Source: Fodinibius saliphilus (GTDB lineage: Bacteria > Bacteroidota > Rhodothermia > Balneolales > Balneolaceae). From it: a DNA stretch of 64,000 bases. The notes beneath the pieces were generated by a model that searched no databases, was not told the origin of the DNA, and worked only from the letters and a program-made list of their open reading frames with translations. Made by a program: the position numbers and the translations under genes. The stretch is from the NCBI RefSeq assembly GCF_005869845.1, contig NZ_VAWF01000004.1:124001-188000 (forward strand), written 5' to 3'. This document shows positions 4,194-61,689 of this stretch, in pieces; within the stretch, counting starts at the first letter, position 1, and each line of letters begins with the position of its first letter.

Positions 4194-6707
4194 TTAAAAT
4201 GTAGGAAGGTTAGCTTTCAATTCAATCATCGCCATTCGCCCAATTGTTGGAGAAGCAACAAACTCTCGGACTTCGGATCCAAACAAATTAGTAACCTGTG
4301 CCGACACAGTTACATAATCGCTAAACTTATAACCTCCACTTATATCAATATTTACAAAGCCTCCCAAAGGACCGTCATTCCAGTCTCTGCCTACCCGTGC
4401 ATTTTCAACAACAGGATCACCACCTACGGTAATATCTCTGTTTGTCTCTGATGCTACATTGATTCCTGAGAAGAAGTTATAACTCTGAACCCAGCGTCCA
4501 AATATGCTTCCAAAAAACTTGTCTTTATTAACATTGAGCCCGAGACTTATTTTGTTTTTTGGGGTGTTAATAGGCAAGTCTGTGGTCTGCACCTCACCAT
4601 CTCCATTCGCATCATTGGACAGATCACTTTTATCCAAGGAAAAATCAAAATATGAGTAATTCATCTTAATACTTATTTCATCATTAATGAAATAATTCAG
4701 CCCCAGATCAAAACCATAAGTATTAACTTTACCATAGTTTAAATAGGTGAGCACAAAGTCACCAGGCTGTACAATACCGCTCTGGAGTTCACTAATAGGC
4801 TGGTCGCCTCTTTTTGTAACGATAGGACCACCTGAGAATGCTTGAGGAACAATATTGTTTAAGGGACTTAAAAAGTCTTCGGAGAAATTATAATACGCAT
4901 TAGCATCTACAAACAGATTTGAAAGTGGAGTTCCCTTATATCCCAACTCCAAAGTCTGTATAGTTTCCACATCAATGGGATCAATTGTTGAACCATCGCT
5001 AAGTGTAAACCCTTCACCATTACCCAATACGATACCCCCAAATAGGTTCATCTCCATGTTTAGGATTGTAGGAGCTGCAATTCCCTTGCCGTAGGTAAAT
5101 CGCCAAGTGCCCTTTTCCCCTACCCGTAACAATCCTGCTTTAGGGATAAAGTTGAATCCATATTTATCGTGATTATCCCCTCGAGCTGCAAATATAGCTT
5201 TTAGACCACCAAAGCCCAGCGTTTTTTCCAATTGAACAGAAAACCCAATTTGGTTGATAACAATATCACTATTCCCATCACTATCCAGCAGGTATGTCCC
5301 CTTACTGTTTGCGATGTCTCGTTGATATTGTGCACCAATAATGTAATTAAAGTTACCGATATTGTTATTATACTGGACTTCTGCTGCCAAACGCCTAGAA
5401 TCATCTTTAAAAACCGAACCCCGATCTAGGGCTACTCCATTGCTGGGCGAACTACCAGCCCATTGCTCCGTAAATGAACGTTCCCGCGCCTCTTCTTCAC
5501 TGAATCCGGCATTTTTGAATGTAAGGTAATTTTGCGTTCGCTGGTTCATTGCAAAAGTATCATCGGTCTTACTCCAGGTGTGGTTTACCTGCATAAACAA
5601 GTTTTCTGAACTAAATCGTCCTTGCAGGTAATGAACTTGCCAGTCTTTGATATTATTTCTTCCGGCATTTGTCACCCCAATATAATTACTGTTACTACCC
5701 CCGTAATTCAAAATAATGTCTGATTCGTCCCCTACATCGAAATACAGTCCTGCTTCTCCTTTGAGCACATCAAAATCCGGTTCCAATCCTATTTCACGAG
5801 ATGCCTGGCTACCAAAATATACGGTGTCGGTATAAGCAAACTCTTTACCACGGGTATATCCTCCGGTTATTTTCAGACCTACCCCCTCAGTTATTTCATC
5901 AGCGTAACGTAAACGTCCTGTAAACTGTTCTTGGCTACCTCCACCTACCACGACAGTGGTACCTTCAGTATTCCTGGGATCCTTGGATATGGTATTGATA
6001 AGACCATTATGAGCATTAGGGCCATACAATGCTGCAGAAGGACCCAACACCACCTCTGTTCGGGCTATGTCTTCTTTTATCTTAGGCTCCATCAAACCGA
6101 ATGGTAACTCAGTAGCAATTAACGTAGAAAGCCGACCATCAGTCATTTGCAATACCTTCGTATTAAAAGCACTGTTAAAACCACGTACATTGATACCTGT
6201 TCCATAAACACCAGTACGAACGTAGTCAACACCTTTTAACCTAGAGAGCAACTCCCCGGTATTAAACGAAGCAGACTGCGAAAGCTGTTGATCGTCAATA
6301 ACCTCGATTGTAGCAGGAGCATCTGTAATTTTTTCTGCGCTCCTCCCCTTTGAAGCTGATACAACCACCTCATTCCCAGACCAAACGGTCTTCTCCAGCT
6401 GAATATCCACAGTTACTGTTTTCCCTGCTTCGACAGTAACAGGATCACTCTCAAATGACCCGAAACCAAGATAAGTGGCTTTTACTCTATATTGGCCATT
6501 AGCAAGGTCAGTAATCTTGTAAATTCCTGATTTATCTGTGGCCGCACCTTTAGTGGTGCCTACCAAAGATACATTAACCCCGGGCATGACCTCTCCGGTT
6601 TCCTCATCTGTAACCGTCCCCGTTATAGTGCCACTATTTTGCGCCCAGGCACTTGATGCTATAAACATCAAGGCACAGAACAATGTAATAGTTACTAGTT
6701 TTCTCAT
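4194..6707 (-). CDS. TonB-dependent receptor with carboxypeptidase-like N-terminal domain
   Basis: Outer-membrane active-transport barrel of about 837 residues. The ATG at 6707 is chosen over one at 6719 because GGGGA lies 6 nt upstream. A signal peptide ends near AWAQ. Residues 30-110 are a CarboxypepD_reg-like beta-sandwich (GTVTDEETGEVMPGVNVSL), followed by a plug domain (about 125-245, with VVLGPSAALYGPNAHNGLIN) and a beta-barrel to the end. The last residues, MAMIELKANLPTF, fit a barrel terminus. It is neither SusC-length nor paired with a SusD gene. It is the last gene of the leftward acyl-metabolism cluster. A 16-bp inverted repeat 58 bp upstream matches two others in that cluster, so control by the GbsR-type regulator is likely. 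Its substrate is unknown; family membership alone does not separate siderophores, lipids and other ligands. Confidence 0.92.
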   Translation of the reverse strand: MRKLVTITLFCALMFIASSAWAQNSGTITGTVTDEETGEVMPGVNVSLVGTTKGAATDKSGIYKITDLANGQYRVKATYLGFGSFESDPVTVEAGKTVTVDIQLEKTVWSGNEVVVSASKGRSAEKITDAPATIEVIDDQQLSQSASFNTGELLSRLKGVDYVRTGVYGTGINVRGFNSAFNTKVLQMTDGRLSTLIATELPFGLMEPKIKEDIARTEVVLGPSAALYGPNAHNGLINTISKDPRNTEGTTVVVGGGSQEQFTGRLRYADEITEGVGLKITGGYTRGKEFAYTDTVYFGSQASREIGLEPDFDVLKGEAGLYFDVGDESDIILNYGGSNSNYIGVTNAGRNNIKDWQVHYLQGRFSSENLFMQVNHTWSKTDDTFAMNQRTQNYLTFKNAGFSEEEARERSFTEQWAGSSPSNGVALDRGSVFKDDSRRLAAEVQYNNNIGNFNYIIGAQYQRDIANSKGTYLLDSDGNSDIVINQIGFSVQLEKTLGFGGLKAIFAARGDNHDKYGFNFIPKAGLLRVGEKGTWRFTYGKGIAAPTILNMEMNLFGGIVLGNGEGFTLSDGSTIDPIDVETIQTLELGYKGTPLSNLFVDANAYYNFSEDFLSPLNNIVPQAFSGGPIVTKRGDQPISELQSGIVQPGDFVLTYLNYGKVNTYGFDLGLNYFINDEISIKMNYSYFDFSLDKSDLSNDANGDGEVQTTDLPINTPKNKISLGLNVNKDKFFGSIFGRWVQSYNFFSGINVASETNRDITVGGDPVVENARVGRDWNDGPLGGFVNIDISGGYKFSDYVTVSAQVTNLFGSEVREFVASPTIGRMAMIELKANLPTF

Positions 6708-6764
6708 AATAATCCCCATTTATTATTTATGTTACCGTTTATTTCTTTTCATGTTTATCAAAGT

Positions 6765-6780
6765 TTTGGAAAATTTCAAA
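6765..6780 (-). promoter_or_regulatory. Candidate operator 1 of the GbsR-type cluster
   Basis: On the minus strand this reads TTTGAAATTTTCCAAA, an imperfect inverted repeat of half-site TTTGRAA. It lies just beyond the stop of the 6783-7868 hydrolase and 58 bp upstream of the receptor start. Copies at 13697 and 14277 share the consensus TTTGAAAnnTTYCAAA. Operator function is inferred from position and repetition. Confidence 0.6.
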
Positions 6781-6782
6781 CA

Positions 6783-7868
6783 TTAATTACGTAAATCGTT
6801 ATTTTTACTCTCAAAATACCCCACCATGGTATCAAGTACCTCTCCTTGCTTTTCTATAAAGGGTGTATGTCCACAATCATCGATGAACTTTTTATCAACT
6901 TTCCCCCCTTGCCCCAGATATTGCTGCAATGCATATTTAATTTGAGCTATCATCGGTTGTGGAGGATAGCTATCACTACCCGGCCAACCTTTCCTTAACT
7001 TCAACTTTCCCTGGTACCCCGGGTCAGAATATGACTGATCGGAAATAATTTTGTCATCTTTTCCGTGAATCCAGAGCAGTGGTGGCTTAGGACTAGCCTC
7101 TACAAATTGCTGTAGTAAATTGGTATTGTATTTGGGAGAAAGCGCATTTACCGGCCCATATTTACCGGGCGCTACCCCCGGCCAATAATCAGATTTCCTG
7201 TAATCACCCGGATATTTCATTTCTCCAGTATGAATTTGGAGCATGGCTGACAAGATTTCATCTTCTCGCTCCGCCCGAAACCCTTCTTTCCAAAAAAGCC
7301 TGTTCATTGTATTCCTTGGTGAAAACAAAGGATCTTCTGTCGACCGATCTCCGGCCCTGAGACGTTCCACAAATTCATCAACCACAATACCGCCCCCTGA
7401 ACCGGAATAATCCTTATTATTTGCGATTCCCGTGGCTTCGTGAATGCCTCCAAACCCCATGGGCGGTCCCGGTGAAATAAGTGTTACGGTGTCAATAAAA
7501 TTTGCCATTCGATCAATCATCCCCCAGCATACAAACCCTCCCAGAGAATGGCCTACCAAATGATAATGCGATAACTCCAAGGCATTAACTAATGAAGCCA
7601 GATCCTCAACCCAATCTTCTATTCCTTTTGTAGCATCAATAATTTGGTCTTCAGTCTGCCCAAACCCACGCAGATCGGGTGCTATACAGTAGTATTTATC
7701 AGATAGAGCCTTCATTAACGGCTCCCAGACAGTTGAAGAACAGGTATTTCCATGCAAAAATAACACAGGCGGACTTGCTACTTCACCAGCGATAAGCAAG
7801 TGCATCCGGATTCTTTCGGTAGTTATAAACCGAGAAGTGACACCCTTAAGATGAGTGATTTCATTCAT
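6783..7868 (-). CDS. Alpha/beta hydrolase (cluster hydrolase 2)
   Basis: A 361-residue alpha/beta-hydrolase-fold enzyme without a signal peptide, so probably cytoplasmic. Visible features are the oxyanion-hole region LFLHGNTCSS (about 36-45), the nucleophile elbow GHSLGG with Ser108, an acid in WIHGKDDKII, and the histidine in DDCGHTPFIEKQ. The segment between the nucleophile and the acid is long (about 130 residues with a Gly-rich stretch), which implies a sizeable lid. It overlaps the upstream acyl-CoA synthetase by 8 bp, so the two are translationally coupled. Hydrolysis of an ester, lactone or thioester made or imported by the cluster is a reasonable inference; the actual substrate cannot be read from sequence. 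Confidence 0.88.
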   Translation of the reverse strand: MNEITHLKGVTSRFITTERIRMHLLIAGEVASPPVLFLHGNTCSSTVWEPLMKALSDKYYCIAPDLRGFGQTEDQIIDATKGIEDWVEDLASLVNALELSHYHLVGHSLGGFVCWGMIDRMANFIDTVTLISPGPPMGFGGIHEATGIANNKDYSGSGGGIVVDEFVERLRAGDRSTEDPLFSPRNTMNRLFWKEGFRAEREDEILSAMLQIHTGEMKYPGDYRKSDYWPGVAPGKYGPVNALSPKYNTNLLQQFVEASPKPPLLWIHGKDDKIISDQSYSDPGYQGKLKLRKGWPGSDSYPPQPMIAQIKYALQQYLGQGGKVDKKFIDDCGHTPFIEKQGEVLDTMVGYFESKNNDLRN

Positions 7869-9360
7869 GCTTCAATGACCTAAATTCCTCTTCCAGATCC
7901 CGTTTCTGAATTTTATTAGAGTCCCCCACCGGAAGTTCATCTCTAAACGCAATATGTTTGGGCAACTGATATCCCGCTAAATATTTCCGGCAATGCGATA
8001 ACAGAACCTCTTCTGATAATACAGCATCATCATGTACCACAACAAAGGCACAGCCGACTTCTCCCCACTGTTCATCCGGCACACCAATAACGGCTACTTG
8101 TGCTACTGCATCGTGCTCATAAATTACTTTCTCTACCTGAACCGGGTAAACATTCTCACCGCCACTGATATACATCTCCTTTTTGCGCCCCACCATATAA
8201 TAGTAACCATCATTATCACAACGGAATAGGTCACCTGTATGCAACCAACCTTCATCAAGGGCTTGGTCTGTAGCTTCTGAATTTTGCCAATAACCTGAAA
8301 ACACATGCGGTCCTTTCATCAAGAGTTCCCCCACCTCTCCTCTGGATACTTCCTCATTTTGCTCATCAACAATTTTGACCCCTATATGGAAATTTGGAAA
8401 GCCTACTGACCCTTTTTTACGGATAGCATCTTCGGCAGGAAGCGAATAACAATTGGGGCCGGCTTCGGTAAGGCCATAGCCCTGACGAATGGGTACTCCC
8501 TTCTCTTGGTATTTTTTGATAATAGGAACGGGACATGATTCACCACCACATATAGCAAAACGGACACTACTAAAATCAGTATTCATAAAACTTTCTTCCT
8601 CCATCATCATACGTAACATGGTGGGGATCCCAAACAGTATACTAACCTCCTCTTCTTCTATCAGATTGTTACATGCTGCTGCATCAAATTCTGATTGCAG
8701 TACCAGCTTGCCCCCATGATGAATTAACGGCGTTAGTAATACATGCCAACCGCCGGTGTGATAAAAAGGAGTATTTACAAAAGAAGAATCATCGGACGTG
8801 AGCCCGAGGCTGATCTCAGTATTGAGGGAATTCCAGTGAACCTGCTGCCATGAAATCATTGCCCCCTTTGAACGACCGGTAGTACCAGAAGTATAGAGAA
8901 TCATTGCGATTTCTTCGGCTTTGGCATGGTATAGCTCCAGTTTGCCTCCTTCGGACTTCAGAACATTTTGTATGGTGTCTATAGACAATAGTGAGTACTC
9001 CTTACCGGCCTCTTTCACCACCGATTTAAATTTATCAGCATACACCAGCAGATGCGGCTTAGAGTCCTCAACTAATTCCATGAGACCCGCTTTGGGTAAC
9101 CGATAGTTCAACGGGACCATAATGACCCCGACTTTTGCGCATGCAAAGAACAACACTATATATTCTATGTTGTTTTTGGATACCACGGCCAAGCGATCTC
9201 CTGCTTCAAGACCCTGATTGTGCTGGAGGTAAAATGCCAATCGGTCGGCCTGTTCATTCAATTTCTCATACGTATATCGATTACCCGAAGAGGTATCGAT
9301 TACTGCCTCTTTATGGGGCGTATGCCGCTTCCGTTTTGTTAGCCAATCGTTATAATACAT
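7861..9360 (-). CDS. AMP-forming acyl-CoA synthetase (ANL superfamily)
   Basis: Activates a carboxylic acid as an acyl-adenylate and then as the CoA thioester. The 499-residue length is normal for a medium-chain or aryl acyl-CoA ligase. Motifs in order: the P-loop-like LYTSGTTGRSKG (about 155-166), GYGLTEAGPNCYS (A5), HTGDLFRCDNDGYYYMVGR (A7/A8), and the catalytic Lys in SNKIQKRDL near the C-terminus. It starts 2 bp after the symporter stop and overlaps the downstream hydrolase by 8 bp, so all three are tightly coupled. Chain length or aromatic specificity cannot be inferred. It lacks the features of the longer OleC-type synthetases. Confidence 0.92.
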   Translation of the reverse strand: MYYNDWLTKRKRHTPHKEAVIDTSSGNRYTYEKLNEQADRLAFYLQHNQGLEAGDRLAVVSKNNIEYIVLFFACAKVGVIMVPLNYRLPKAGLMELVEDSKPHLLVYADKFKSVVKEAGKEYSLLSIDTIQNVLKSEGGKLELYHAKAEEIAMILYTSGTTGRSKGAMISWQQVHWNSLNTEISLGLTSDDSSFVNTPFYHTGGWHVLLTPLIHHGGKLVLQSEFDAAACNNLIEEEEVSILFGIPTMLRMMMEEESFMNTDFSSVRFAICGGESCPVPIIKKYQEKGVPIRQGYGLTEAGPNCYSLPAEDAIRKKGSVGFPNFHIGVKIVDEQNEEVSRGEVGELLMKGPHVFSGYWQNSEATDQALDEGWLHTGDLFRCDNDGYYYMVGRKKEMYISGGENVYPVQVEKVIYEHDAVAQVAVIGVPDEQWGEVGCAFVVVHDDAVLSEEVLLSHCRKYLAGYQLPKHIAFRDELPVGDSNKIQKRDLEEEFRSLKHE

Positions 9361-9361
9361 A

Positions 9362-10930
9362 TTATTGTGCTACTGCTGATTCCGTTTTCTCACTTCTCAG
9401 AGTAAGTCCCCTGTTCTTTGTGGCGTATATGCTAAAACCAACAGCTACTGCACTAATAATCGCCAGGGCTGCTGCCACTCCTGGATTTTCTCCGTCCGCT
9501 TCTGAAAAAGGAACTCTTATCTGTCCATAATACACCGTAAAATGCACAATGACTGCTGTTACCGATGCCCAAATGGGAGCAGATTTGGGTACATCACGAA
9601 AGAACATCCCCATTAAAATGGGTACAAAGGCTGCTGAGAAGTAGGCATAAACACCATTTTGAGCAAAAATGCCTACGCTTAATTTGGGGTTCATGAGCTG
9701 TTGCCATGAAAGTATTGCGGCAACAATAGCCATGGCTACAATTACCACACGATTACAAACGAGTTTTGCCGGCAAGCCCCACAATTCTCGTTCAAATAGT
9801 GATGATCCCCCTAAGGGGCCGATAATATCATTAGTAATAGAGGTTGACAGGGACTGTATTAGACTTTCGAGTGTAGAGATACCTGCTGAAATCAATCCCA
9901 AAACTATAATAAGTGCTACCGCTACCGTAAATTCTTTAACAACGTAGGCCGAAATGATACCATCCATTGGCAATGCCTCTCCATTAACTGATAAATCAGC
10001 AAAGCTTATACGCGCGTATAATCCTGCGATGACGACCAAAAAGAATAAAAATTGAGCCGCTATGCCAACTAATAGGTACCGGTTCACATCCTTTTCATTG
10101 TTAAGTAACAACGATTTCGTAAGTATATGCGGCTGACAAACAATGGCAATACCTACAATAAAGGGAGCCACAAATATTTCAAAGTAATCTCGAAACAGGA
10201 AACTACTATCATTAGTCAGCTGCGTTAGTTTGGGATCGATAGCATTCAGTTTATCCAAAAAGCCTGAGATGCCATTGCTAAAATGTTCGTATCCGGAGCC
10301 CAACAGTATAAATGCCACAATCACCATCAGCACCGCTTGGATAGTATTTGTATATACCATGGAATTGGCCCCCCCGTACATCATATATCCGAAAATAAAT
10401 ATGATAATACCGGTGAGTACATAAAGTTCTGGCAGATTTAACGTACTGGAGAGCACTTTGGTAAGTCCCACGCAAATCAGCACAATAAAAGTTATAAGCA
10501 GCAACGATAAGAATCCGAAAAAGATGCCAAACCTTCTGCTATCGTATTTTTTTCGAATCCAGTCGGCCATACTTAACGCTTTGACATTAGCCCCATAGCT
10601 TCGAAATCCCTTTGTGAATAAGATCAACGATCCTAAAGTTGCCAGCGGAAGGGCTAGGCCCAGGGCGATAACACCACTAAATCCGTACAGGGCAACAAAA
10701 CCTGGATTAATTATAAAAGTTGCTGCACTAGTGATAGATGCTGCCAATGAGAGCCCCACTGCAGTAGGCGAAAACATCATACTGCCCAAAGCGTAATCAT
10801 CCAACTCTTTGGTTTGTCCGGCCCCTCTAATTACGAAATAGAGTATGATCGCGGCATAACAGAGAATCAGAATCCAACCTGCTGTAACCATTGTGGATGA
10901 TGCTAGGTCCATATCTATATACTTTTGCAT
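9362..10930 (-). CDS. Sodium:solute symporter (SSS) family transporter
   Basis: A 522-residue inner-membrane protein with about 13 hydrophobic segments spread along the whole length, typical of SSS transporters. The repeated transmembrane pattern starts with MVTAGWILILCYAAIILYFV, and a conserved early segment reads SLAASITSAATFIINPGFV. Family members import sugars, amino acids, acetate and other carboxylates with Na+. Placement directly before an acyl-CoA synthetase makes a carboxylate substrate likely here, but that is inference. The gap from the upstream KAS III gene is 43 bp and shows no terminator. Confidence 0.9.
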   Translation of the reverse strand: MQKYIDMDLASSTMVTAGWILILCYAAIILYFVIRGAGQTKELDDYALGSMMFSPTAVGLSLAASITSAATFIINPGFVALYGFSGVIALGLALPLATLGSLILFTKGFRSYGANVKALSMADWIRKKYDSRRFGIFFGFLSLLLITFIVLICVGLTKVLSSTLNLPELYVLTGIIIFIFGYMMYGGANSMVYTNTIQAVLMVIVAFILLGSGYEHFSNGISGFLDKLNAIDPKLTQLTNDSSFLFRDYFEIFVAPFIVGIAIVCQPHILTKSLLLNNEKDVNRYLLVGIAAQFLFFLVVIAGLYARISFADLSVNGEALPMDGIISAYVVKEFTVAVALIIVLGLISAGISTLESLIQSLSTSITNDIIGPLGGSSLFERELWGLPAKLVCNRVVIVAMAIVAAILSWQQLMNPKLSVGIFAQNGVYAYFSAAFVPILMGMFFRDVPKSAPIWASVTAVIVHFTVYYGQIRVPFSEADGENPGVAAALAIISAVAVGFSIYATKNRGLTLRSEKTESAVAQ

Positions 10931-10973
10931 TATAATTTTGACTTATTGTGGTAAAGCCGCTGCTACTATCTAA

Positions 10974-11963
10974 CTACCATCGATAAGCACAAGCTCCAAA
11001 GTGAAGCCCCCCACCCGAACCAACAAAAACCAAAAGGTCACCATCCTTAACCGCCCCATCTCGTAGTGCTTTATCAAAAACCATGGGAATGGCTGCCGAA
11101 CCAGTGTACCCAAAGCGATCCATAATAGTAGGGGCTGTATCACGCTCCAGAGAGAGGTTATCCATAGTTTCCCAAATCTGGTTAATATTTATCTGAGTCA
11201 TATAAGCACCGGCAATATCATCAGTATTAAATTTTGCTTTCTCAGCCATTTTGCGAATCATATCTGTCCAAATACGTGGATTTATCTCTTTTGGAAACTT
11301 TTCGACAAACTGAAGACATTGAGAACCTCCCTTCGTCTCACTCCGGGCCGCGGGTGCCGCTGCCCCGCCACCATAAATCCCCATATGTTTATAATACTCT
11401 GGTTTGGTACGCAAGTCGGATGCTAAAAAACCAACTCGCTTTTCATCTGTTGGTTCCAAAATAACAGCACCGGCTCCATCAGCAAATAACGTTACCGTTT
11501 TCTTATCATCCATATTTAAAAATCGACTCATCCCATAAGCTCCCATTACCATTACTTTTTGATAAGTAGCATCTGTTACCATCATACTATTGGCCAATGA
11601 TAGTGCGGTAGGAAAGCCCGCACAGGCGGTATTAGTATCTAGAGAAGTAGCATTGGCAAGGCCCATCTTATGCTGTACTACTGATGCAGTAGAAGGGGAA
11701 ATAAAATCTGGTGTATCTGTTGCAATTATCAACAGATCAATATCTTCTGGTTCCAATTCGGCCATCTCTAAGGCTTCCTGACCGGCCTGTACACATAAAT
11801 CACTCGTAGACTGTCCTTCTTCCATCCAGCGGCGTTCACGAATCGTCAAATTTTCACGTAGCCAAGTGTCAACATCTTCTCCAAGCAGTTTATTAAACCA
11901 TTCATTCTTTATAACCCTATCTGGGGCGTAAGAACCACTTGCGATAATCTTAGAGTGTCTCAT
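10974..11963 (-). CDS. KAS III (FabH)-like thiolase-fold enzyme lacking the usual His/Asn
   Basis: The 329-residue length and overall pattern match beta-ketoacyl-ACP synthase III: TNTACAGFPTALSLAN contains the acyl-accepting Cys114, and the C-terminal SGGGLHFGACAYRW matches the FabH end. In ordinary FabH, Cys works with His in HQAN and Asn in GNTS. Here the equivalent positions read TQIN (Thr256) and FGYTG (Tyr286), so two of the three triad residues are gone. Decarboxylating condensation is therefore doubtful. Acyl transfer, thioester hydrolysis or thiolysis, as in divergent KAS III-fold enzymes, is more plausible. Its start codon overlaps the SDR stop (TAATG). It is unlikely to be the housekeeping fabH, given its catabolic-looking neighbours. 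Confidence 0.88.
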   Translation of the reverse strand: MRHSKIIASGSYAPDRVIKNEWFNKLLGEDVDTWLRENLTIRERRWMEEGQSTSDLCVQAGQEALEMAELEPEDIDLLIIATDTPDFISPSTASVVQHKMGLANATSLDTNTACAGFPTALSLANSMMVTDATYQKVMVMGAYGMSRFLNMDDKKTVTLFADGAGAVILEPTDEKRVGFLASDLRTKPEYYKHMGIYGGGAAAPAARSETKGGSQCLQFVEKFPKEINPRIWTDMIRKMAEKAKFNTDDIAGAYMTQININQIWETMDNLSLERDTAPTIMDRFGYTGSAAIPMVFDKALRDGAVKDGDLLVFVGSGGGLHFGACAYRW

Positions 11964-12706
11964 TATACTACTAATCCCCCATCTACCTGTATAACGGTTC
12001 CCGTAATATATTCGGCTTGATCCGATGCTAAAAAGAGATAAGCAGCTGCAATATCTTTTGGTTTGCCGAGACGTCCCAGCGGTGTTTGATCTTTAAGCTG
12101 ATTGAGTACCTTTTCAGGCACTGTATCGACCATGGGCGTTTCAATAAAGCCGGGGGCTACTGCATTTACCCGAATACCTTTGCGTCCTAACTCTCGAGCC
12201 CATGTCTTGGTAAGCCCAACTACACCCGATTTTGTAGCCACATAATTACTTTGCCCAAAATTACCGTATAATCCTACCACTGAGCTGGCATTTAATATCA
12301 CCCCGGATTCCTGATCTCGCATTAACCCAGATGCCGCCTTTCCGCAATAGAAGACCCCATTTAAATTAACATCCATGACTTGCTGCCACTCGTCTGGATC
12401 CATTTTTTTAAGCGTTGCATCCCGTGTAATTCCTGCATTGTTTACGAGCACATCCAGCCTGCTCCACCGCTCCTGTAATTCAGACATCGTTTGCTTTACA
12501 GCTTCATAACTAGTAACGTCCAACTTCTCAAAATGGACATTATTCCCCTCATCAGTCCATTTTTGAGCCAATTCCTTACCGGCCTTTTCGGCCATATCCC
12601 AAATTTCCACCTTTGCTCCTCTATCAATAAACTGCTGAGCAGTTTCCCGACCGATACCACCGGCTCCACCTGTTATCAACACTACCTTATTTTCAAAATC
12701 CATCAT
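11963..12706 (-). CDS. FabG/PhaB-like short-chain dehydrogenase
   Basis: Classical SDR of about 247 residues. The nucleotide-binding TGGAGGIG motif lies near residue 13, NNAG near 90, the catalytic Ser in NASSVVGLYG, and Tyr-x-x-x-Lys in YVATK. The C-terminal PGFIETPM and ITGTVIQVDGG match 3-oxoacyl reductases and acetoacetyl-CoA reductases. Reduction of a 3-oxoacyl thioester, or oxidation of a 3-hydroxyacyl one, is the likely reaction. Two adjacent ATGs (12706, 12703) are possible starts; a TTG at 12715 is less likely. It sits between the exported hydrolase and the KAS III-like gene without terminators, in one leftward operon. The standalone FabG role in fatty-acid synthesis is less likely given that context. 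Confidence 0.9.
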   Translation of the reverse strand: MMDFENKVVLITGGAGGIGRETAQQFIDRGAKVEIWDMAEKAGKELAQKWTDEGNNVHFEKLDVTSYEAVKQTMSELQERWSRLDVLVNNAGITRDATLKKMDPDEWQQVMDVNLNGVFYCGKAASGLMRDQESGVILNASSVVGLYGNFGQSNYVATKSGVVGLTKTWARELGRKGIRVNAVAPGFIETPMVDTVPEKVLNQLKDQTPLGRLGKPKDIAAAYLFLASDQAEYITGTVIQVDGGLVV

Positions 12707-12721
12707 AAACTGCAATCGATA

Positions 12722-13675
12722 TTATTTATTTAAAAAACTTATAATCATTCCATTTACCATTTTTGATTGCTCAAAGTGAACAAAATGACCGGCTTTTTCT
12801 ATCATCTGCAACTCACTTCTGGGCAATTTATCATGACCAAAGCTTGCTACCTTTCTTGTCGTTAATTTGGGATGTACCTGTCGATTAGGAATAAGGCCAT
12901 CTTGCTTACCGAAAATGATTAGCGTTGGCTGCTCCACTTTATGCAATTTATCCGCAACCGGATGCATTAACATCGCTTTCACCGATGCTGCATACGCTCG
13001 TGCGTATCCATCAAAATTATTAGCCTTTCGAATCTTTATTCGATCTTCAATCATAAACTCTGCCTCTTCAGGAAAATCCCAAAAAGTAGTCTTAAACGTC
13101 TGTCGCACCAATGAATCTGGTGTTGCCTTAATGGAAGATGGAGTTACAAAGCTGCTTATCATCTGCCCCTCCTGTTCTGTAAACTTTTCAAATCCTGCAG
13201 GCGCTAGCAATATCAGTTTTGATACTTTTTCTGAATGACTCAATGCGGCCTGCAAGGAAATTTGTGCCCCCATAGAATGCCCTACCCAGCTTGCTTTTTC
13301 GATACCCAGCGAATCTTGTAACTGAACCACCGTTTCAGCAAAAAACGGTATACTATAATCAGCTACATTCTTTGAACTCTTACCAAAACCTGGCAAATCT
13401 ACAGCGATAACCCTAAATGACTTTCGCAAAATCCGAATATTCTTTTTCCATGCCGGAATGTAACTTCCAAGGCCATGGACCATCATGATAACCGGCCCTT
13501 CTCCAACATCTGTATAGGCAATACGATCTCCAGTACCCAATTGCTGGTATTCAACCGAATAGGGGTAGTCGAGATCAGAAAATTGCAGCGACTGTCCCTT
13601 AAGAAGGGAGAAAGGAATGAGTAAAGTGATTCCCAAAAACCCAAGTAATGCTATATGTTGAAGCTTTTCTTTCAT
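12722..13675 (-). CDS. Exported alpha/beta hydrolase (cluster hydrolase 1)
   Basis: A 317-residue alpha/beta hydrolase with an N-terminal hydrophobic stretch (HIALLGFLGITLLIPFSLL) that looks like a signal peptide or membrane anchor. Residues 20-60 then lead into the strand MMVHGLGSYIPAW. The catalytic triad is visible as Ser in GHSMGAQ, Asp in FGKQDGLIPN and His in KAGHFVHFEQ. An envelope or periplasmic esterase or lactonase that releases a substrate for uptake fits the neighbourhood. A 16-bp inverted repeat, the second of three, lies 22 bp before the start codon, so it probably overlaps the promoter or translation start region. The substrate is unknown. Confidence 0.87.
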   Translation of the reverse strand: MKEKLQHIALLGFLGITLLIPFSLLKGQSLQFSDLDYPYSVEYQQLGTGDRIAYTDVGEGPVIMMVHGLGSYIPAWKKNIRILRKSFRVIAVDLPGFGKSSKNVADYSIPFFAETVVQLQDSLGIEKASWVGHSMGAQISLQAALSHSEKVSKLILLAPAGFEKFTEQEGQMISSFVTPSSIKATPDSLVRQTFKTTFWDFPEEAEFMIEDRIKIRKANNFDGYARAYAASVKAMLMHPVADKLHKVEQPTLIIFGKQDGLIPNRQVHPKLTTRKVASFGHDKLPRSELQMIEKAGHFVHFEQSKMVNGMIISFLNK

Positions 13676-13696
13676 ACAAACTCAATTTATTAAATA

Positions 13697-13712
13697 TTTG
13701 AAAAGTTCCAAA
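13697..13712. promoter_or_regulatory. Candidate operator 2 of the GbsR-type cluster
   Basis: TTTGAAAAGTTCCAAA, in the 55-bp gap between the regulator stop and the exported hydrolase start. It is nearly identical to the sites at 6765 and 14277. It suggests that the metabolic genes are controlled separately from, or in addition to, read-through from the regulator gene. Confidence 0.62.
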
Positions 13713-13730
13713 CGTTAAATTTTAAAAAAA

Positions 13731-14216
13731 TTATTCCGAAATCTCTTCGTGTTGTTCTTCCCAAGCTTTCATAAATTTTTTGTTATACTCATCCATCAGT
13801 TCATAAAAGGATTTCATCATTTTCATCTGCTTTTCTACATAGTCTGCTGATGAGGAATCCATCCCTTTAACTTGGGCCAGATACTTTTCAGCAATCTCAA
13901 TATTGTCTTGCATCTTGTTTACCTGGTTGGAATACGCCTTCCCAAAGATATCTTCAGCAGTTTTATAGTAATCTTTTCGATCTCCGGGAATCCACACCTT
14001 CTCAATAAGTCCCCGCTCTTTGAGCCTGCGGCAGATTTGCGAGATAGGACCTTTACTCATCTCCAGCTTCTCCACAAAATCGTCCAATGATTGTGGGTCT
14101 TCTGATATAATCAGTAACCCTACAATACGTCCCATTAATGGATTTAATCCAAAATTACTATACCCTTCTGCAAAATCGGCTACTATCTGTTGCATAAGTT
14201 CGGGTTGTTTGGACAT
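13731..14216 (-). CDS. GbsR/MarR-type winged-helix transcriptional regulator
   Basis: 161 residues with a MarR-like winged helix: LVGLLIISEDPQSLDDFVEKLEM, then SKGPISQICRRLKERGLIEKV and a wing at WIPGDRKDYYKT. This pattern fits the GbsR family, whose characterised members repress choline/glycine-betaine genes. The C-terminal half is charged and helical and probably dimerises. It is the first gene of the leftward cluster, and an inverted repeat lies 61 bp before its start. Autoregulation, and control of the two other matching sites, is the simplest model. The ligand is unknown; nothing in the cluster looks like choline metabolism. Confidence 0.88.
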   Translation of the reverse strand: MSKQPELMQQIVADFAEGYSNFGLNPLMGRIVGLLIISEDPQSLDDFVEKLEMSKGPISQICRRLKERGLIEKVWIPGDRKDYYKTAEDIFGKAYSNQVNKMQDNIEIAEKYLAQVKGMDSSSADYVEKQMKMMKSFYELMDEYNKKFMKAWEEQHEEISE

Positions 14217-14276
14217 ATCTGTGAAAAAATTATGATTATATAAGTTGAGAAATGATTTTGCTCTGTGCCTCTATAA

Positions 14277-14292
14277 TTTGAAACTTTTCAAA
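14277..14292. promoter_or_regulatory. Candidate operator 3 of the GbsR-type cluster
   Basis: TTTGAAACTTTTCAAA, the most symmetric of the three sites, 61 bp upstream of the regulator start. The rest of the gap to mutS (14293-14496) shows nothing I can support; a possible 65-codon frame there lacks any recognisable features. Confidence 0.62.
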
Positions 14293-25574: not shown

Positions 25575-25671
25575 CTAATATTCCAAAATATACTGACATC
25601 ACGCAGTATTCTTTGTATATTTGGGGCCTCTGCAAAATATTTTTGAAACCTTTCTAAATGTACTCCTCCAC

Positions 25672-60486: not shown

Positions 60487-61689
60487 ATGACATACGATTT
60501 TCTTATTGTCGGTGCAGGTATCGTCGGGCTCTCAACAGCCTATAAATTATCTGAACGTTTTCCAGATACTAATATACTGGTCCTTGAAAAAGAAGATGAA
60601 GTAGCGGCCCACCAAACCGGAAACAACTCGGGGGTTATTCACTCCGGTATCTACTACGACCCCAATAGCTATCGTGCAAAAAACTGTGTCGAAGGCCGTC
60701 ACCAGCTGGTTGATTTTTGTGAAAAACATGGGGTTGATTATGAAATTTGCGGCAAAGTTATTGTTGCTACTGAGGAAGAAGATATCTCCCGTCTGAACGG
60801 TATTTTCGAGACCGGTAAAATAAACGGCATTGAAGGAATCAAAAAAATTGGGCCCAAAGAACTTAATGACATAGAACCCTACACCACCGGTGTAAAAGCA
60901 ATCCATGTGCCATGCTCCGGCATCGTCGATTATATTGGCGTTTGTAAGAAGCTGAGTGATCTTATAGAAGAACGAGGTCATACCGTGGCTTGCGGCAAAG
61001 AAGTAAAAAAAATTAGTAACAATGGCAAAAACCTGTCTGTGCTAACCAATTGTGGCACCTTTAATAGCCGCTACCTCATTAACTGTGCCGGCTTGTATAG
61101 TGATCATGTTGCTGAGTCTGCAGGGGTATTCCCTGACATTCAAATTGTGCCTTTTCGCGGGGAATACTTTGAATTAAAACCGGAGGCCAAGCACTTTGTA
61201 AACGGTCTTATCTATCCTATGCCAAATCCTGCATTCCCATTTTTAGGAGTACATTTTACCAAGATGGTGAATGGGGCTATTGAATGTGGACCCAATGCCG
61301 TATTCGCTTTTGAACGAGAAGGCTATGATAAAATCTCTTTTGACCTGGAAGAAACAATTGAAACCCTGAATTTTCCCGGCTTTTGGAAGCTTGCAAAAAA
61401 GCACTGGAAAATGGGTCTTGACGAATGGTATCGCTCTTTTTCAAAGAAAGCATTTGTGAAAGGGTTACAAAAACTGATCCCTGCTATTCAACCTCAACAT
61501 TTAAAACCTTCTCCTTCAGGAGTTCGGGCGATGGCTTTGAAACCGAATGGCGAAATCCTTGATGATTTCCATTATGAGGCCACCGAAAATGAGATCCATG
61601 TTCTTAATGCTCCCAGTCCGGCCGCTACTGCGGGCCTGGCCATTGGTGATGAAATCGTGAAACGGGCAGAAGACTCTTTTTCACTTTAG
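60487..61689 (+). CDS. lhgO: L-2-hydroxyglutarate oxidase/dehydrogenase
   Basis: 400-residue FAD enzyme of the DAO family. FAD site: FLIVGAGIVGLSTAYKLSER; the family block is HQTGNNSGVIHSGIYYDPNS; substrate-side PFRGEYFEL and the C-terminal APSPAATAGLAIGDEIV. It oxidises L-2-hydroxyglutarate to 2-oxoglutarate and passes electrons to the quinone pool in E. coli. It is followed by a gene for a likely D-2-hydroxyglutarate dehydrogenase on the same strand, 247 bp downstream. The gap shows no obvious terminator. Confidence 0.94.
   Translation: MTYDFLIVGAGIVGLSTAYKLSERFPDTNILVLEKEDEVAAHQTGNNSGVIHSGIYYDPNSYRAKNCVEGRHQLVDFCEKHGVDYEICGKVIVATEEEDISRLNGIFETGKINGIEGIKKIGPKELNDIEPYTTGVKAIHVPCSGIVDYIGVCKKLSDLIEERGHTVACGKEVKKISNNGKNLSVLTNCGTFNSRYLINCAGLYSDHVAESAGVFPDIQIVPFRGEYFELKPEAKHFVNGLIYPMPNPAFPFLGVHFTKMVNGAIECGPNAVFAFEREGYDKISFDLEETIETLNFPGFWKLAKKHWKMGLDEWYRSFSKKAFVKGLQKLIPAIQPQHLKPSPSGVRAMALKPNGEILDDFHYEATENEIHVLNAPSPAATAGLAIGDEIVKRAEDSFSL

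Follow-up and report, generated by a model that had tools for sequence, protein, structure and literature searches.

How a compact cluster of genes for acid uptake and acyl-CoA metabolism is controlled, and for which substrate it was built, are the questions raised by positions 6765–14292 of a 64,000-nucleotide stretch of the Fodinibius saliphilus genome (C4:124001-188000, hereafter the window), from a member of the Balneolaceae in the Fodinibius/Aliifodinibius group. A sequence-only reading of this stretch had picked out three 16-bp inverted repeats, placed just upstream of a TonB receptor gene, a gene for an exported hydrolase and the gene for a GbsR-type regulator, and had proposed that they define a local regulon. 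Our analysis makes it likely that the three palindromes serve as operators for the 161-residue regulator of GbsR/MarR type, which would repress its own gene, the adjoining operon and the receptor gene, and would be released by an organic acid or the CoA form of such an acid.

The palindromes are all where they had been reported. The pattern TTTGAAANNTTYCAAA (TTTGAAAnnTTYCAAA) is matched in the window at 6765–6780, 13697–13712 and 14277–14292 only, always between genes, and zero matches were obtained in 100 dinucleotide shuffles of the window. Operator 1 (TTTGAAAAGTTTCAAA, 14277..14292, minus strand) is centred 68 bp before the start codon of the regulator and is kept in the genus with 0–1 mismatch. 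Operator 2 (TTTGGAACTTTTCAAA, 13697..13712, minus strand) is centred 29 bp before the gene for the exported hydrolase, HydE, and is exact in four same-genus clusters, while operator 3 (TTTGAAATTTTCCAAA, 6765..6780, minus strand), centred 53 bp before the TonB receptor gene, is identical in G004 together with its flanks, despite the differing receptor body in that genome.

The first impression that the window has no further copies, which did not come from an exhaustive scan, proved correct throughout the 3.6-Mb genome. When all 3,606,883 bases (11 contigs) were scanned, the motif was found in three places, all in the cluster (3/3) rather than scattered at background, and a reversed control pattern had 0 occurrences. 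With one mismatch permitted, the counts became 11 places for the motif vs 10 for the control, meaning that the looser copies are background and that the exact sites alone stand out; one-mismatch copies were consequently ruled out as extra regulon members. The two that lie in the window (25642–25657 and 61382–61397) are both within open reading frames. The symmetric natural form of the motif is TTTGRAANNTTYCAAA, and in many relatives CG is added at both ends to give a fuller conserved operator, CGTTTGAAAnnTTTCAAACG, an extension that the window's own three sites fit in part only.

Among 59 related genomes, 19 encode an orthologous regulator (E 1.8e-38 or better). In four genomes of the same genus (G003, G004, G005 and G009), as also in G019, gene order is preserved and sites occupy the same three places with 0–1 mismatch; in more distant Balneolia, an exact site lies between the regulator gene and the gene for a short-chain dehydrogenase/reductase (SDR). 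The 59 genomes contain 37 exact TTTGRAANNTTYCAAA sites in total, 23 of which are in orthologous clusters, and the 14 outside compare with 10 for the reversed control. At least one exact site was present in 18/19 genomes with the orthologous regulator vs 6/40 without it. Nine of the outside sites were read individually: six were in open reading frames (one of them short and doubtful) and three between genes, so that such sites were mostly dropped as candidate regulon members, and those of L190 and L195 stand beside genes without clear relation. In G037, an exact operator (L189:331-346, on contig C95) lies about 70 bp before a TonB receptor gene of the same family, on another contig than the cluster, in which a porin-like gene stands in the receptor's stead. 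This receptor is, by prediction, a distant member of the regulon.

For a wider comparison, loci were named from the related genomes and from additional genomes of the phylum that were retrieved by way of the FabH-like (ketoacyl synthase III, KAS III) enzyme of the cluster. Going by the record labels, a complete or partial set of regulator, SDR, KAS, transporter, ligase and hydrolase genes occurs in Balneolia, Rhodothermaceae, Calditrichota, Marinimicrobia, KSB1, Kapaibacterium, Ignavibacteria and Gemmatimonadota, with the SDR reductase, the FabH-like enzyme, a transporter, an acyl-CoA ligase and an alpha/beta hydrolase as the conserved core. When 234 upstream segments from 42 non-redundant loci were scanned de novo for every hexamer palindrome with gaps of 0–12, the top palindrome was TTTGAA-N4-TTCAAA (shifted twin, TTGAAA-N2-TTTCAA), found in 19/42 loci; in shuffled segments, no palindrome reached more than four loci. 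Exact sites were present in 35 segments (0.05 expected from shuffled DNA) and 26/42 loci; allowing up to one mismatch raised these counts to 54 segments (0.36 expected) and 37/42 loci. Sorted by gene start, the exact sites precede SDR genes in 17/36 cases, regulator genes in 8/42, receptor genes in 4/12 and HydE genes in 4/23, plus one ligase and one KAS gene. In the same 42-locus scan, none was found before the symporter (SSS), OMPx, LipoX or HydC genes, all of which lie inside operons. The reading as a local regulon is thus supported both by the concentration of sites (3/3 in the genome, 23/37 in the relatives) and by their conservation before orthologous clusters, seen in the genus and in several phyla.

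The regulator itself (13731..14216, minus strand, 161 aa) carries a winged helix of the MarR_2/GbsR type, as had been supposed: it scores 28.2 bits with Pfam MarR_2 (cut-off 27), and residues 8–149 are similar to Mj223 (1ku9; E 2.3e-15). Mj223 is the structural template for models of GbsR-type proteins. The recognition region MSKGP-SQI (helix-turn-helix stretch LEMSKGPISQI) is nearly invariant among the 19 orthologues. In the same orthologues W75, Y84 and F91 are invariant, aromatic residues considered for their bearing on the choline cage near the linker in GbsR. An identity with the choline regulator CudC was ruled out (NCBIfam NF047500, 57.6 vs a cut-off of 218 bits). The presence of a short inverted repeat near the starts of the regulated genes, the regulator's own included, is a further trait shared with the GbsR/MarR family. 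Among described systems, the nearest include GbsR and OpcR from Bacillus subtilis and OpuAR from B. infantis, small MarR-type dimers of the Mj223 type that repress uptake and conversion genes from an A/T-rich inverted-repeat operator near the operon start (PMC6207618, PMC7396694). Our regulator shares the Mj223-type fold and the placing of the repeat, and would share the dimeric form and the repression. These proteins control choline and compatible-solute genes, whereas the present regulon concerns acid uptake and acyl-CoA metabolism. CydE of Alishewanella (cited in PMC6207618) resembles our putative repressor in being of the GbsR type and outside osmostress control, but it responds to sulfate and controls cydAB, so that both genes and inducer differ.

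The position of the sites bears on the mode of control. With start codons across the loci estimated by alignment to the window proteins, 36/54 sites had their centre under 40 bp upstream of it, in some cases at 7–14 bp. A protein at such a distance could obstruct a promoter or an advancing polymerase, but an activator would not fit there ahead of a promoter serving the gene, which makes repression the best reading and, on these sequence grounds, would make it far likelier than activation. GbsR, OpcR, OpuAR and CydE are all repressors (PMC6207618, PMC7396694); B. subtilis GbsR acts as a roadblock, bound to an A/T-rich inverted repeat that lies beyond the transcription start site, and its relative OpcR covers the promoter (PMC7396694). 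We infer that this protein binds the sites, that it represses and that it answers to a single inducer. A dimer bound at the three palindromes would repress the regulator's own gene, the HydE-led operon and the outer-membrane receptor gene, the block acting on transcription at, or just after, its start; it would leave the DNA upon binding either an organic acid formed in the pathway or the CoA form of that acid. The genes so controlled would import and activate an esterified or oligomeric acid by means of an exported hydrolase, an outer-membrane receptor or porin, an inner-membrane symporter, an acyl-CoA ligase, an R-type reductase and a FabH-like acyl enzyme.

Some observations sit less comfortably with this scheme. 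The Bacteroidota promoter consensus TTTG-N17-21-TAnnTTTG showed no enrichment, either across the genome (116 vs 105 for the reversed control) or in 73 upstream regions, and a strict sigma-70 consensus was not enriched genome-wide (6 vs 19 for the control). As promoters can be placed with neither consensus, occlusion and roadblock are not distinguishable. The lack of enrichment also led us to drop the first half-site TTTG as a Bacteroidota −33 box. Furthermore, 5/42 clusters were without a site at one mismatch or fewer in the scanned segments, although in one of the five (L090) an exact site is present elsewhere in the locus.

Three other accounts of the palindromes have to be set against repression by the linked regulator. 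If the same protein used the same sites as an activator when its ligand is present, the site of the regulator gene (68 bp) and the receptor sites (45–71 bp) would be far enough from the start codon, and activators do exist among MarR-superfamily proteins (PMC6207618); for the majority of sites, however, at less than 40 bp and down to 7–14 bp, the transcript start would fall inside the gene, and we consider this account improbable. Slightly more improbable is that a different transcription factor, with its gene at another locus, binds the palindromes and that the MarR-type gene is merely a member of the cluster. Our assignment of the sites to the linked regulator is a deduction, which leaves room for such a factor, but the sites follow the orthologous regulator across the 59 genomes (18/19 with vs 6/40 without), the regulator's own gene is preceded by a site, and no exact site exists in the genome of G042, where the regulator is found without the cluster genes on a short contig. 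Finally, it is very improbable that the palindromes are promoter or structural elements, such as an A/T-rich core promoter or an RNA hairpin, rather than protein operators: exact copies are absent from the rest of the genome, whereas promoters are everywhere, and the known promoter consensus sequences are not enriched, even if the sites are A/T-rich and a T/A-rich block comes after them at a similar distance. Repression by the linked regulator accordingly stays our preferred account, at the strength given at the outset.

The eight cluster genes are all on the minus strand, and the MutS gene upstream is not a member. Downstream of the regulator gene come those for HydE (12722..13675, 317 aa, exported alpha/beta hydrolase with a GHSMG box; Abhydrolase_1, E 1.2e-31), a FabG-like SDR reductase/dehydrogenase (11963..12715; NCBIfam NF004198, 305.9 bits, cut-off 296), the KAS III-like enzyme (10974..11963), a sodium:solute symporter (SSF; 9362..10930; PF00474, E 1.2e-28), an AMP-binding acyl-CoA ligase (7861..9360; PF00501, E 3.3e-85) and HydC, a second alpha/beta hydrolase (6783..7868, 361 aa; Abhydrolase_1). 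Among solved structures, a meta-cleavage product hydrolase is nearest to HydE and fatty-acyl/feruloyl-CoA synthetases (8weu/8wev) are nearest to the ligase; a poly(3-hydroxybutyrate), or P(3HB), depolymerase is among the nearest for both HydE (8ynv) and HydC. The best NCBIfam match of HydC, i_nPHAscl, stayed under its cut-off (89.9 vs 300 bits).

The last gene of the cluster encodes the TonB-dependent receptor (4194..6719, 841 aa), which is chimeric relative to its genus, with an N-terminal domain as in G004 and a plug and barrel as in L058. Its first ~110 residues (signal peptide and N-terminal carboxypeptidase-like domain), together with the upstream operator DNA, are 76–80% like G004; the plug and barrel are 42–68% like L058/G020 and mostly ~30% like G004. 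This is a modular swap, in which the receptor body was replaced beneath an operator that stayed the same. The cluster is not a SusC/SusD polysaccharide utilisation locus, since the receptor scored 57.1 vs 368.25 bits for RagA/SusC and a Pfam search of the eight cluster proteins turned up nothing SusD-like.

Order-level clusters contain additional genes for a MaoC hydratase, a Pfam-less lipoprotein and an outer-membrane barrel. The AlgE/OprD-like barrel (OMPx; L066:13256-14803) and the small lipoprotein (L066:12677-13183) are conserved and have no Pfam/NCBIfam match. A structural model of OMPx, of modest confidence (pLDDT 61.6), matched AlgE (E 2.5e-16) and also OprD-type channels, and a model of the lipoprotein gave weak lipocalin-like matches only (E 0.014 or worse). 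In loci from Ignavibacteria/Kapaibacteria (L090:11569-13641, L086:9786-11825), a gene for a chemotaxis receptor, with Cache and MCP signal domains in L090, is placed within the cluster close to the operator, as though cells might also swim toward the substrate.

The KAS III-like enzyme belongs to the same fold family as FabH and retains the catalytic cysteine (C114, in TACAG), which is invariant. The catalytic His and Asn of FabH, on the other hand, are replaced: in all 17 aligned orthologues, the His of PHQAN is Thr256 (TQIN) and the Asn of GNT is Tyr286 (GYT), and a wider set of KAS sequences includes one Ser at the His position. The protein also fails the fabH model TIGR00747 (213 vs 292.1 bits). 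Because the same genome encodes a separate, normal FabH with PHQAN and GNT, the cluster enzyme is not the housekeeping one. Judging from FabH chemistry, an enzyme lacking this His and Asn is a doubtful catalyst of decarboxylative condensation of the ordinary kind. The variant, with its invariant Cys and with Thr and Tyr in place of His and Asn, is conserved in dozens of Bacteroidota genomes.

As to the substrate, an indication comes from Kapaibacteria/Ignavibacteria, where genes for PhaE and/or PhaC, the class III synthase of polyhydroxyalkanoates (PHA), directly precede the regulator gene (L085, L086, L087, L090), the PhaC proteins scoring 447–459 bits (cut-off 365.3); L091 has the same gene order as the loci with phaE-phaC. 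FabG-like reductases and MaoC hydratases act on (R)-3-hydroxyacyl groups. Taken together, the phaE-phaC neighbours, the FabG-like reductase and MaoC favor (R)-3-hydroxy acids, derived from PHA or other 3-hydroxyacyl esters. Systems for PHA synthesis and 3-hydroxybutyrate use (phaEC, a phaB-like reductase, a thiolase and an oligomer hydrolase) thus resemble these loci in having phaE-phaC beside this regulator, and the FabG-like reductase, alpha/beta hydrolases and CoA ligase of the cluster fit them as well; a difference is that the FabH-like enzyme would occupy the place expected for the thiolase. We therefore put forward (R)-3-hydroxy acids, as from polyhydroxyalkanoates, as a tentative substrate class, a hint that our confidence in the regulon does not cover. 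Counting against it, the PHA link comes from one lineage, PhaE/PhaC being seen in Kapaibacteria/Ignavibacteria loci and not in Balneolia relatives; class III PhaC was found neither in the 59 related genomes of the order nor in the window genome, and the window hydrolases are below family cut-offs. Given the missing PhaC, the substrate would be scavenged in the window organism.

There is not far from an even chance that the same regulon serves a different acid, such as a hydroxycinnamate, a fatty acid or another ester-bound acid. The nearest structures of the ligase and of HydE point that way, and the MaoC hydratase of some clusters would suit an unsaturated acid. The phaE-phaC genes adjoining the regulator argue for the 3-hydroxyalkanoate instead, as do the P(3HB) depolymerase match shared by the two hydrolases and a TIGR00366-like gene near the L175 cluster, which at 349 bits is below the cut-off of 575.75. 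A fuller version of the (R)-3-hydroxy acid proposal, somewhat unlikely to hold in all its parts, is that the cluster encodes a widely conserved and so far undescribed pathway by which these acids and their oligomers are scavenged. In it the Cys-Thr-Tyr FabH-like enzyme would transfer acyl groups or cleave in the manner of a thiolase, and control would lie with a GbsR-type repressor that has kept its operator across several phyla.

Irrespective of the substrate, this is a new regulon under a known kind of regulator, and a fair case can be made that the pathway under its control is undescribed: in the literature searched, we found nothing combining GbsR, Bacteroidetes and regulon, and no description of the present cluster. 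In a survey of the GbsR family, gene neighbourhoods gave no consistent picture for the Bacteroidetes group, and no consistent role had been assigned to its regulators (PMC6207618). For one orthologous group there is now a consistent neighbourhood, with a definite operator and gene set and an inducer class that can be put to the test. Several poorly annotated genes, including those for the FabH-like enzyme that lacks the customary His and Asn and for two Pfam-less outer-membrane/lipoprotein families, are thereby joined into one multi-phylum system.

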